Below are positions 40,241 through 45,076 of a stretch of DNA of 54,593 nucleotides, in pieces; within the stretch, counting starts at the first letter, position 1, and the number at the start of each line of letters is the position of its first letter. The notes under the pieces are model-generated. The model made no database searches. It worked only from the letters and a program-made list of their open reading frames with translations, and had not been told where the DNA came from. The translations under genes and the position numbers were made by a program. Source of the stretch: a bacterium (GTDB lineage Bacteria; Caldisericota; Caldisericia; Cryosericales; Cryosericaceae); the NCBI GenBank assembly GCA_021373025.1, contig JAJFTL010000018.1, positions 1-54,593 of the forward strand. The letters run 5' to 3'.

Positions 40241-41392
40241 ATGAGACTACTGCATACTGCCGACTGGCATGTCGGAAGCACATTGGCTGGATTGGACAGG
40301 TTTGACGAAACGGGCAAGCTGCTCGACGAGTTGTTTGTCGCAGCACAGTCCGAGAAGGTGGACGTGGTCATTGTGGCGGGCGATATCTTTGACAACCCGA
40401 TGCCGGGCAACGTCAGCCAGAAGCTGGTCTTCGACTTCTTCGCGCGTCTGAGCAGCGCGGGCATCCGCGCCGTTGTCCTGGCTGGCAATCACGATGGCCA
40501 GGTCTTTGTCCCCAGCAAGAGCCTGCTGAGTTTGGGCACAGCGTCCGTCTTCGAGAAGCCATCCAGCGAGCAATATCAGCTCAGGTTCCGATCGCGCGCC
40601 GACGAGCCCGTGGTCGTGACCGCACTGCCGTATCCGCACGAGCGCGTGGTGATGAAGCTGAACGGCGCGGACGACGATGTTCATGGCGATTACGCGAGCA
40701 GCGTCAGCAAGTTTATCCGCTGGCTTGCCGGTCATATGAACCCGTCAGACATCAACGTCTTCGCAGCACACCTGATGATCGGAGGAGCCCAGCTCACGGA
40801 CACAGAGCGCCCCATGTCTGTCAGCCCATTCTTTGCCATCCCGGCGCAGAATCTGCCGTCCCAGACGATGTACAACGCCCTCGGCCACGTCCACCGCCAT
40901 CAACAGCTGGTATCGGCACCTGCGCGCTCGGAGTACTCCGGCAGCATCTTCCGCGTCAACTTCAGTGAGGAGGGGACACCGAAGGGATTCAACCTTGTGG
41001 ACGCGGATATGAAGGGGAACCTGACGGTACAGTTCGCAGAACTGCAATCCGCCATCCAGTTGCACAACGCGGACTGCACCCTCCAGAACTGGGCAAGCAG
41101 TCTCGAGCCGTACAGGGGCAAAGGGTACACAAAAGCGCGCATCCACGCGGACGACCCTCCGTACAACCTGCAGGGCGAGATCCGTGCAGCATGCCCGTGG
41201 GTCGTCAAGGTGGAGTTCGTGCGGTCTGAGGTGGCAGCCACGACCAGGCCCACCATCCAAGCCCTGGCCAGCACAACCCTCGAGACAGTGCAATCGATGT
41301 ACCGAGCCTACAGCGAAGAAGTCGGCGGGGACGTCATGAAGGTAGTCGGTGAGCTGTACCAGGAGGTGACACATGCGGATCCAGACGCTTGA
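40241..41392 (+). CDS. sbcD: Exonuclease subunit SbcD (Mre11-like)
   Basis: The 383-residue metallophosphoesterase has the five Mre11 nuclease motifs: TADWHVG (Asp8, His10), AGDIFDN, LAGNHDG, AHLMIGG and ALGHVHRHQ. It forms the nuclease core of the SbcCD complex, which resects and cleaves hairpins and blocked double-strand ends with Mn2+. It overlaps sbcC by 20 bases. The C-terminal 100 residues are the capping and SbcC-binding part. Confidence 0.95.
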   Translation: MRLLHTADWHVGSTLAGLDRFDETGKLLDELFVAAQSEKVDVVIVAGDIFDNPMPGNVSQKLVFDFFARLSSAGIRAVVLAGNHDGQVFVPSKSLLSLGTASVFEKPSSEQYQLRFRSRADEPVVVTALPYPHERVVMKLNGADDDVHGDYASSVSKFIRWLAGHMNPSDINVFAAHLMIGGAQLTDTERPMSVSPFFAIPAQNLPSQTMYNALGHVHRHQQLVSAPARSEYSGSIFRVNFSEEGTPKGFNLVDADMKGNLTVQFAELQSAIQLHNADCTLQNWASSLEPYRGKGYTKARIHADDPPYNLQGEIRAACPWVVKVEFVRSEVAATTRPTIQALASTTLETVQSMYRAYSEEVGGDVMKVVGELYQEVTHADPDA

Positions 41393-44027
41393 GGTCGAGA
41401 ACTTCATGCCCTACCGCGACCCGGTCACGCTGGATTTCAGCGACATGGCACTGTTCGCCATCGTGGGAGAGACCGGATCCGGCAAGTCCTCGGTCGTCGA
41501 CGCAATCTGCTACGCTCTCTATGGACGTATCCCGCGTATCCGGACGGAGAATGGACAGCGCGAGAATATCATCAACCGTGGCGCGAAGCAGTTTCATGTC
41601 GCCTTGACATTTGATCTCGGCGGTGCAACGTACAAGATCATCCGACAAGGGACAACTGCACGGGAGGACGTCCAGGTCTTCAGGGACGGGGCTCAGCTTA
41701 CCCAGCTGCTCAAGAAGAAAGACGCCGACCGGTATATCGAAGAAGACCTGCTGCACATGAGCTTCGACGTCTTCACCCGCATCATTGTTCTGCCACAGGG
41801 GCAGTTTGACCGATTTCTCAAGCCGGATACCCCGCGTGCTCGCCGTGACATCCTGATCTCGCTGCTGAACCTGGACATCTACGAACGCATCGGCAAGGCG
41901 GCCAGTGCGCATGCTAGCACGCTTCTCGGTGAATTGGCAGGACTGGACCACGACCTCGCCGGCATCGACCAGTCCACACTTACGGACGAAGCGATGGAGT
42001 CTCTGGATCATACCATCACTGAGGTGAGCGGACGGGTCATGCTGCTTCAGGAACAGCTCACGGCACGCGAGCTGGCACTGGCCATGACGGAACAGAAGGT
42101 CGCGAAGGGCCAGCAGCTGACGAAACTCCGGAAGCAGCTCGAAGGACTGCGTGCACACGCAGATGATGTAGCTGCTGACCGCGCACGTCTCGCTGTCGGT
42201 CAAGCATTAGTCTCGCTGCGGCCCTCGCTGACGGGCTGGGAACGCCTGGCAGGACAGCGTGCGCAGTTGAGCGAGGATCACGAGAAGGCGGCGCAGGCAG
42301 TCCTGGCAGCACAAAAATCCCTGGAGGCAGCAAACCAGGCTCGCACCGACCTGATGCACCGGGCGGATGAAGCGGCCTTTGTCGAGCGATTGACCGAGCT
42401 AGCGGCTGCTATCAACCGCTTGAGCGACCTTCAACCTTTTGCAGCGCGCCTCGAAGAGTTGCAGCACAAGATGAAGACCGCCGCCGCGAAGAGCGAGACG
42501 ATCAGTCATGACATGGCCGCGCTGACGACATCCATCCAGGCGATGGACCAGCGGCGGGAGAAACTGCAGCATGAGCTCGAAGCAGCCCGTGTGACATCCG
42601 CACAGGCCGAGGACGCCTTTGAGCGGGCGCAGGCCGACAACGCAGCACTGGTCGTCCAGCAGGGTCTGAAACCCGGCGACACCTGTCCCGTCTGCGGTCA
42701 CGTTGTCGAGGAACTCGTCACCCACGTCGAACACAGCGACTTTGCGCTCCTCAAGCGTACCCGCGATGAGGCGCGCACGGCGGTCGAACACCAGTTGGCC
42801 ATTCTGACCGACCACGACAAACAGGTAGAGGCTGACCGGGCACGCCTGGAGTCACTCAACAAACAATTGACTGCCTTGAAGGACGAGGATGCGGCCGACC
42901 ACCATGAGGCGCATGAACTCACCCTGCGTCTGCTTATGGATCCGAGTGTCGCCAAGGAAGGCAAAGAAAATCCTGTCGTATTCCTTCGGACCCGCCTTGC
43001 CCATCTGCGCAGCCAGGAGACAACGACCCGCACCGCGCAGCAGACCATGATGGTGCAGCTCGAGGAGGCCCGCCGAAAGGAAGAAACGCAGCGCACGCTT
43101 CTCAGCCAGGCAGAAAACAGTGCAGCGACCCTAGCGGGTCAGTACCAACAGGTCGTCGAACAGCACGAAGCTCTCCAGCAGGACCTGCTGGCCCAAGCGG
43201 CCATGCATGGATTCGATTCCATCGCTTCGATGAAGGCTGCGGTGCTGCCCGCCGATAAGCTGACAGCCCTGCAGTCCTCGGTCGAGCGTTACGACCGGGA
43301 CACCGCTACGGTTTCGGGGCAGGTGGAGATGCTGGCGCGCGAGTTGGGAGACATGATCCCCTCCGAAGCGGACCTGCAACATTTTCGCTCGCTGCGGGAC
43401 ACAGCAGCAGCCGATTGTGCGCGGGCGCAGGACGAGCTCGCAGCGGCGCGCCGCGCCAAGGATGATCTGATCGGCCGCCGCGCGTTTCTGGCCGATCGTC
43501 TTGCGCGCAAGGACCAGGTCACGCATCTGCTGTCCACGTACCAGCAGGTGGCCCGTGACTTTGGCAGCAAGGGCATGGTGGCTTTCGTCAGCAGCGGTAT
43601 CCTCGAACAGCTGCTGGTGACAGCGAATGACCATCTGCGCACGCTGAGCAAGGGTCGCTTCGAGCTGCTGCTTGACGATGGTGACCAGATGATGGTTCAA
43701 GACTCCTTCAGCGCGTCAGGACCGCGTGATGTTGCGACGCTCTCTGGGGGAGAAACTTTTCTCGCCTCTCTGGCGCTTGCTCTCGCCGTCAAGGATCTGC
43801 TCTCTGTCAGCGTTGACCTGGACAGCTTCTTCATCGACGAGGGATTCGGGACGCTGGACGAAAACACGGTACAGGGCGTCGCCGATGTCCTGGAGTCCCT
43901 GCGCAGGGACGGTTCCCTCGTCGGCATCATTACGCACAGGGCGGATCTTGTGGAGCGCTTCGAGACGGTGCTCGAGGTTACCAGCCAAAGCGGTTCGGCG
44001 CATATCGCGCGCCGGGAGATGGCCTGA
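41373..44027 (+). CDS. sbcC: DNA repair ATPase SbcC (Rad50-like)
   Basis: The 884-residue SMC-like ATPase has N-terminal Walker A GETGSGKSS (32-40) and Q-loop region IIVLPQGQF, then long coiled coils split by a zinc-hook CPVCGH (Cys438, Cys441). The C-terminal signature is LSGGETFLASLALALAV and Walker B FFIDEGFGTLD. E. coli SbcC has about 1048 residues, so the coils are shorter here. It tethers DNA ends and controls the SbcD nuclease. Its TGA overlaps the ATG of the next gene. Confidence 0.95.
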   Translation: MRIQTLEVENFMPYRDPVTLDFSDMALFAIVGETGSGKSSVVDAICYALYGRIPRIRTENGQRENIINRGAKQFHVALTFDLGGATYKIIRQGTTAREDVQVFRDGAQLTQLLKKKDADRYIEEDLLHMSFDVFTRIIVLPQGQFDRFLKPDTPRARRDILISLLNLDIYERIGKAASAHASTLLGELAGLDHDLAGIDQSTLTDEAMESLDHTITEVSGRVMLLQEQLTARELALAMTEQKVAKGQQLTKLRKQLEGLRAHADDVAADRARLAVGQALVSLRPSLTGWERLAGQRAQLSEDHEKAAQAVLAAQKSLEAANQARTDLMHRADEAAFVERLTELAAAINRLSDLQPFAARLEELQHKMKTAAAKSETISHDMAALTTSIQAMDQRREKLQHELEAARVTSAQAEDAFERAQADNAALVVQQGLKPGDTCPVCGHVVEELVTHVEHSDFALLKRTRDEARTAVEHQLAILTDHDKQVEADRARLESLNKQLTALKDEDAADHHEAHELTLRLLMDPSVAKEGKENPVVFLRTRLAHLRSQETTTRTAQQTMMVQLEEARRKEETQRTLLSQAENSAATLAGQYQQVVEQHEALQQDLLAQAAMHGFDSIASMKAAVLPADKLTALQSSVERYDRDTATVSGQVEMLARELGDMIPSEADLQHFRSLRDTAAADCARAQDELAAARRAKDDLIGRRAFLADRLARKDQVTHLLSTYQQVARDFGSKGMVAFVSSGILEQLLVTANDHLRTLSKGRFELLLDDGDQMMVQDSFSASGPRDVATLSGGETFLASLALALAVKDLLSVSVDLDSFFIDEGFGTLDENTVQGVADVLESLRRDGSLVGIITHRADLVERFETVLEVTSQSGSAHIARREMA

Positions 44028-45076
44028 TGATCATTCGTCCTGATTACTGGCAAAGCGTCTACACCGGTTCTACGGAGGTGGAGTTGACCGATCAGAAACG
44101 TTCCTACGACGTGGTGGTGACTACTGAGTGCCATGACCTGGGCCACTGGAACGCCATTCGCGTCCCTGATGCAGTGTTTGCTGAAGTCGCCAGCGCCTGC
44201 GTGGCGTTTGTGGACGGTGTGCGGCGCATCGACATGCACGGCATTATCGACGGCAACCCGCCCTATTATGGTGTCTTCGGTTCGGTCGCTGCCGGCTGCA
44301 TGCAGATGTCCGGCGCGCATGCCCATGACACGATGAACGCCCTCCGCGGCGAGGTCGTGAAGCACTACTTCGTGACCAACGCACCGGACCCGGACATGAA
44401 GACGGTCAACCTGGTCAGCGACCCCTCGTGTCCCTTTGACGTCCAATATGAGATCCACCCGTCCACCAGCCACGACCCGGCCGATTTTGGCCAGGAACTC
44501 AACAACCTCATGCAGGAGTTGGAGCATCGTGTCGCCCAGGATCAGGTGGACCGCCCCGATGTGCAGGCGGTCATCACGGACGGCCCCATCCCTTACGAGC
44601 ATCAGCTGGCCGCTGGTACTGGCAAACTCGCCGGCATCATCAAGAACGTACAGGAAGCCTATCTCCAGCATGACCAGTTCGCCACCGTCCTGCACCTCAA
44701 ACAGGCCGAACGGACCCCGCTCTTCGAGATCCGGTATCCCGACAGCAGTGGAAGCAGCAAGATGAGCTTCTTCCTGCGGCTGCGGGAGGTGACAGCGTTT
44801 GGCAGCGCCATGGCCAACCTGGTCCGTGTTGAGCTCCCTGTCATGGGACTAACCGAGGCGGTCCATCTGGCCGATCTTGCCTCCGCCATCGCCGTGCACT
44901 ACTCCAGCAACCTGTGGGGTGACACCAGGGCACCCCAGAACCTGTACCCGGTCGGCGCCCTCGAGACGGCACTGAAGAACCGCCTTGGCGATCAGCGTTT
45001 CTTGCGCAGCGTCATCATGCGGACCCTTGCCGCAGGTGATGCGACCCCCAGGCCGGCATCACCTTTCCAGGCGTAG
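44027..45076 (+). CDS. NurA-domain-like nuclease coupled to sbcCD
   Basis: The 349-residue protein fits the NurA 5'-3' nuclease/RNase H-like fold by motif order: first acidic strand ACVAFVDGVRRIDM (about 58-71), a second acidic strand VQAVITDGPIPYEH (about 183-196), a lysine-rich segment LAGIIKNVQEAY and a late ASAIAVHYSSNLWGD. In archaea NurA acts with HerA, Mre11 and Rad50 in resecting DNA ends. The start overlaps the sbcC stop as TGATG, so all three are made together. No HerA-like helicase is in the window. Assignment rests on motifs seen by eye. Confidence 0.7.
   Translation: MIIRPDYWQSVYTGSTEVELTDQKRSYDVVVTTECHDLGHWNAIRVPDAVFAEVASACVAFVDGVRRIDMHGIIDGNPPYYGVFGSVAAGCMQMSGAHAHDTMNALRGEVVKHYFVTNAPDPDMKTVNLVSDPSCPFDVQYEIHPSTSHDPADFGQELNNLMQELEHRVAQDQVDRPDVQAVITDGPIPYEHQLAAGTGKLAGIIKNVQEAYLQHDQFATVLHLKQAERTPLFEIRYPDSSGSSKMSFFLRLREVTAFGSAMANLVRVELPVMGLTEAVHLADLASAIAVHYSSNLWGDTRAPQNLYPVGALETALKNRLGDQRFLRSVIMRTLAAGDATPRPASPFQA

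Follow-up and report, generated by a model that had tools for sequence, protein, structure and literature searches.

Constantinesco reportedly described in 2004 an archaeal herA-mre11-rad50-nurA cluster. In bacteria the linkage of herA with sbcD and sbcC has already been published for Oceanithermus profundus, where sbcD and sbcC lie downstream of hepA (herA), according to the available part of that account (PMC5448004). For Deinococcus radiodurans NurA, the accessible portion of the report states that loss of D53, K201 or R309 abolishes the nuclease activity, and that the HerA-contact residues of NurA motif 3 are conserved only in Deinococcus (PMC9960219). A SbcCD-NurA unit without HerA is undescribed in the titles and abstract openings that were searched, a search that reached few subscription journals.

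Here we describe a sbcD-sbcC-nurA operon from a Candidatus Cryosericum-like bacterium of the Caldisericota. The window, that is the whole stretch of DNA analysed (54,593 nucleotides), is contig C45 of genome G000, an assembly of 1.6 Mb in 64 contigs that is rated 97.9% complete and has Candidatus Cryosericum and Caldiserica MAGs as its closest named relatives. The operon very probably supplies SbcCD together with the NurA part of a Deinococcus-type HerA-NurA resection machine, whose herA would lie past the aspartokinase gene and here fall into an assembly gap. The following features were located in the operon.

40241-41392, + strand: sbcD, Mre11-like nuclease subunit, 383 aa (Metallophos PF00149, E 6.9e-13; TIGR00619, E 1.8e-50, above the cut-off)
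41373-44027, + strand: sbcC, Rad50-like ATPase subunit, 884 aa (AAA_23, E 1.5e-22; SbcC_Walker_B, E 5.1e-9; TIGR00618, E 1.6e-68)
42684-42695, + strand: CxxC (C438, C441) of SbcC, in the presumed zinc hook, read from the sequence
44027-45076, + strand: nurA, putative Deinococcus-type NurA nuclease, 349 aa (PF09376, 19.5 bits; 7f6d_H)
44213-44215, + strand: NurA D63, equivalent to D53 of D. radiodurans NurA (profile alignment; invariant in 11 of 11)
44642-44644, + strand: NurA K206, equivalent to K201 of D. radiodurans NurA (profile alignment; invariant in 11 of 11)
44927-44929, + strand: NurA R301, equivalent to R309 of D. radiodurans NurA (profile alignment; invariant in 11 of 11)

The trio that the first-pass annotation had placed at 40241-45076 is found in exactly these positions, with all three genes on the + strand and with overlapping ends. 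The overlap between sbcD and sbcC is 20 nt long, and the stop of sbcC shares one base with the start of nurA (TGATG), an arrangement that likely provides translational coupling. The earlier description of sbcC and nurA as "translationally fused" has to be corrected, as they are separate genes that overlap through TGATG with no fusion. The phosphoesterase (SbcD) and ATPase (SbcC) halves of SbcCD share one operon. In the profile search SbcC reaches 231.7 bits against TIGR00618, below the 478.5-bit cut-off of the model. Its CxxC presumably has the zinc-hook role known from Rad50/SbcC.

Judged by its sequence, the third gene encodes a true, though divergent, Deinococcus-type NurA, and its initial designation as NurA-like holds. 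The product matches Pfam NurA (PF09376) with an E-value of 7.7e-4 and 19.5 bits, just below the 21-bit cut-off. Searched as a single sequence, it finds D. radiodurans NurA (7f6d_H, E 1.2e-12) as the top match among solved structures, followed by T. maritima TM1739 (1zup_A, E 0.0012). With a profile of 11 NurA relatives (A1), which was used for both the structure search and the residue alignment, the same chains are matched at E 1.2e-20 (7f6d_H, profile positions 57-335) and E 4.5e-6 (1zup_A). The catalytic D, K and R are retained as D63, K206 and R301 and are invariant in all 11 sequences of A1. An AlphaFold2 model built from a shallow alignment (8 close sequences) has a mean pLDDT of 29.6, a low confidence that is explained by too few sequences in the alignment.

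The HerA contacts were traced through the A1 alignment. K299, K303, H305 and K306 of D. radiodurans NurA correspond to H291, N295, W297 and G298 here, and the basic contacts of motif 3 are not retained at any of these four positions. Because the NurAs of two other genera of the phylum (g20 and g21), which have an adjacent herA, show similar changes at the motif-3 contacts, these changes do not separate NurAs with HerA from those without.

Among the 54 genomes available for the phylum, 14 carry this NurA type: 11 of the 15 that belong to the genus, and 3 of the 5 that belong to f7, a family of another class. sbcC is directly upstream of nurA in all 10 other nurA-bearing genomes of the genus, with the caveats that one contig (G032) holds only the end of sbcC and that one nurA (G025) is interrupted by N. 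The trio sbcD-sbcC-nurA also occurs in g20 (G051 and G052) and g21 (G053), two genera of another class, and the proposal that NurA belongs with SbcCD holds. Against its relatives nurA has a dN of 0.10-0.13 and a dS of 1.0-1.5, which indicates purifying selection. This selection, together with the conserved arrangement, shows that the gene is not a chance ORF. The remaining families of the phylum carry different NurA and HerA genes. The order is, for example, mre11-nurA-herA-rad50 in G003, and in G049 and G050 herA, mre11 and rad50 are together with nurA about 4 kb further.

Three relatives (L005, L007 and L105) have an insert of approximately 45 bases between sbcC and nurA, which would extend the NurA N-terminus slightly. 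A SbcC-NurA fusion in Ca. C. hinesii (L003, open frame of 1213 aa) was rejected, as the joint is an N-filled gap of the assembly. No NurA relative was found in the viral contigs.

The gene directly 3' of nurA in all three g20 and g21 genomes is a Deinococcus-type HerA, and the G051 protein matches D. radiodurans HerA with E 8.6e-137. Neither the g20 HerA (L067 8481-10223) nor a Streptomyces plasmid HerA (L109 3289-5187) has a match to the Pfam HerA and HAS-barrel models (PF01935/PF09378). A mutual exclusion of this NurA type and HerA across the phylum was first suggested by the absence of Pfam DUF87/HAS-barrel matches. This idea was dropped when the gene after nurA in g20 turned out to be a HerA invisible to both models. 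As the Pfam HerA model is blind to Deinococcus-type HerA, "no HerA" verdicts and surveys based on it are unsafe.

The genus was searched with the g20 HerA (the G051 protein) in place of the Pfam models. herA is found in 10 of the 15 genomes (G024, G025, G026, G027, G030, G031, G033, G034, G036 and G037), some of these matches being fragments at contig ends. The genes are of the g20/g21 type, with 62-67% identity wherever the greater part of the gene is available, and the frame is unbroken in all four genomes in which it was read whole. The Cryosericum HerA of G026 matches D. radiodurans HerA (7f6d_B) with E 6.2e-136. Eight genomes of the genus have nurA and herA together, three have nurA alone (G000, G028 and G032), two have herA alone (G027 and G033) and two have neither (G029 and G035). 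The herA of the genus is not adjacent to nurA. It lies approximately 5-10 kb downstream of the aspartokinase gene in G024, G031, G034, G036 and G037, which are all five readable genomes. In G037 a single contig holds nurA and herA, separated by about 24 kb. The herA of G026 has different surroundings, on a contig other than that of the aspartokinase gene.

No herA was found in the window by tblastn. A genome search for herA, which the first-pass annotation had named as a check, gave no match in G000, not even a fragment, at E <= 10 with the Cryosericum HerA as query, but the syntenic stretch is unassembled. Only the first 73 residues of the G000 aspartokinase are present, at the extreme end of the 3736-base contig C4, and the other G000 contigs have no aspartokinase match. 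The histidine-kinase flank was rejected as a marker in G000, where it has only matches of <=39% identity, and aspartokinase was used instead. In the alignment to G037 the end of the window is followed by C4, with about 1.3 kb between them. This synteny yields the chain of window, C4 and gap, and in the relatives herA lies beyond that gap. G000 is an outlier in the genus (nurA dS of 1.0-1.1 against four relatives), and the genes beyond its gap may therefore be arranged differently.

The other genomes of the genus without a herA match are similarly incomplete at this point. The G028 contig stops 183 bases past the histidine-kinase gene, the gene that precedes herA in G024, G034 and G037, and G029, G032 and G035 (61-87% complete) have no aspartokinase match. 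In total, the stretch expected to hold herA is missing from the assembly of every genome of the genus in which no herA was matched (5 of 5).

Three of the four genes of a contiguous herA-nurA-sbcDC set are in the window and herA is displaced in the genus. The phrase "without HerA" is thus true of the window, but a unit that works without HerA is not supported. Against the HerA-free unit stand the herA that follows nurA in g20 and g21, the herA genes of the genus and the unassembled stretch. Most likely the apparent lack of HerA results from a displaced herA, from the blindness of Pfam to this HerA type and from a break in the assembly, and does not reflect a new mode of action.

If herA were truly lost in this lineage, SbcCD would open the end and feed NurA directly, and NurA, bound in one complex with it, would act as a Mn2+-dependent nuclease. 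The lack of a herA match in G000 agrees with such a loss, as do the strong purifying selection on nurA and its overlap with sbcC. HerA is not required for D. radiodurans NurA to nick closed circular DNA, according to the portion of the report available (PMC9960219). However, the stretch with herA in the relatives is unassembled in G000 and in every genus genome without a match, and this NurA type is accompanied by herA in 3 of 3 g20/g21 genomes and in 4 of 4 plasmid records. A true loss of herA is therefore unlikely.

If the operon instead belongs with a displaced herA, the reading we prefer, SbcCD would recognise a broken or blocked DNA end and trim or open it. A HerA hexamer would then pump the duplex into a NurA dimer, and NurA would resect the 5' strand to leave a 3' tail for RecA. 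The preparation of the end by SbcCD and its hand-over to HerA-NurA are suggested by the operon structure, and we infer both that the proteins form a complex and that the cell studied here has herA. In the genus herA would have been relocated from the operon to a site beyond aspartokinase, and in G000 that site would be in the assembly gap. The pumping by HerA and the resection of the 5' strand are proposed by analogy with D. radiodurans HerA-NurA, as presented in the accessible part of the published work (PMC9960219).

The genes after herA vary among the herA regions of G024, G037, G026 and G036 (L083-L086) and include defence families. G024 has AbiJ_NTD4 (PDC-S32), ApeA-HEPN and type IIG restriction, G037 has PDC-M30A/M30B and AbiJ_NTD4, and G026 has DUF4062-TPR. 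herA has the appearance of a defence-hotspot anchor. Extra copies of the herA 3' end only are present in L084 (5256-5313), L089 (5914-6064 and 8546-8703), G025:C122 and G025:C160. One 3'-end copy is between two defence genes (G037) and one is joined to a herA start (G024), an arrangement that points to islands which integrate at the herA 3' end or bring it with them. Contig ends truncate many herA genes. Between the four species (L083-L086) dS is 0.16-0.23 for herA versus 0.24-0.40 for nurA, and aspartokinase, with a dS of 0.27-0.39 in three of the four, is also above herA. The low herA dS could reflect exchange between species or codon constraint. It is improbable that the Cryosericum herA was freed from the repair operon and now anchors a defence hotspot in a fixed position, with a single HerA motor that may serve both NurA in repair and changing defence effectors, and with SbcCD-NurA able to act HerA-free at least at times.

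The trio might also be mainly an anti-phage or plasmid-control system instead of housekeeping repair. The variable defence genes that flank the Cryosericum herA are compatible with this, as are the relatives of the four-gene set on plasmids and the weak matches of SbcC to the Lmu and mads defence models. Rad50-like ATPases in general are expected to match defence models. The conservation of the sbcDC-nurA operon across the genus and the lack of a PADLOC match for NurA speak against a defence system, which we regard as very unlikely.

It is hardly credible that another motor of the FtsK-HerA family replaces HerA, for example the 794-aa ATPase on contig C63 of G000 (L052 2855-5236, - strand; similar matches in many genomes of the phylum). 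This protein shows weak similarity to HerA_C and to HerA-like PDB chains, and contains a P-loop stretch matched by DUF87 (33.6 bits). However, it is unlinked to nurA, G000 as a whole has no HAS-barrel match, and genomes with a canonical HerA of their own also have such matches, at the same profile position and in frames of comparable size (776 aa in G013, G017 and G018).

The Deinococcus-type Mre11-Rad50-NurA-HerA set occurs in Caldisericota, cyanobacteria and actinomycetes, and sbcC and nurA are overlapped in several of these lineages. In bacteria a physical hand-over from SbcCD to HerA-NurA thereby becomes open to test.

Outside the phylum, NurA relatives were found in 4 of 72,556 plasmid records, and all four adjoin herA, sbcD and sbcC. 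The order is herA-sbcD-sbcC-nurA in Streptomyces sp. BB1-1-1, with a 4-base overlap between sbcC and nurA, and in Nonomuraea gerenzanensis. It is nurA-herA-sbcD-sbcC in Sphaerospermopsis kisseleviana and in Nostoc sp. UHCC 0870, where the cluster spans the record start. These clusters have the same four protein types as the genus described here and the actinomycetes share the trio order sbcD-sbcC-nurA, but herA is adjacent and the NurAs are 26-31% identical.

The archaeal herA-mre11-rad50-nurA cluster has the same four functions in one neighbourhood, whereas its proteins are of archaeal type and its gene orders are different, as far as the available part of the source describes them (PMC2288612). 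Closer to the archaeal cluster, within this phylum, are the arrangements in genus g19 and in family f2. By its published description, which was available in part, the O. profundus linkage also joins a bacterial HerA-family gene to sbcD and sbcC, but with herA inside the cluster instead of displaced as it is here (PMC5448004). D. radiodurans NurA-HerA is of the same bacterial type, with D53, K201 and R309 retained as D63, K206 and R301, and its HerA is similar to that of the relatives over almost the entire length. Unlike in D. radiodurans, nurA is here part of the sbcDC operon, the herA of the relatives stands apart and the motif-3 contacts are changed.
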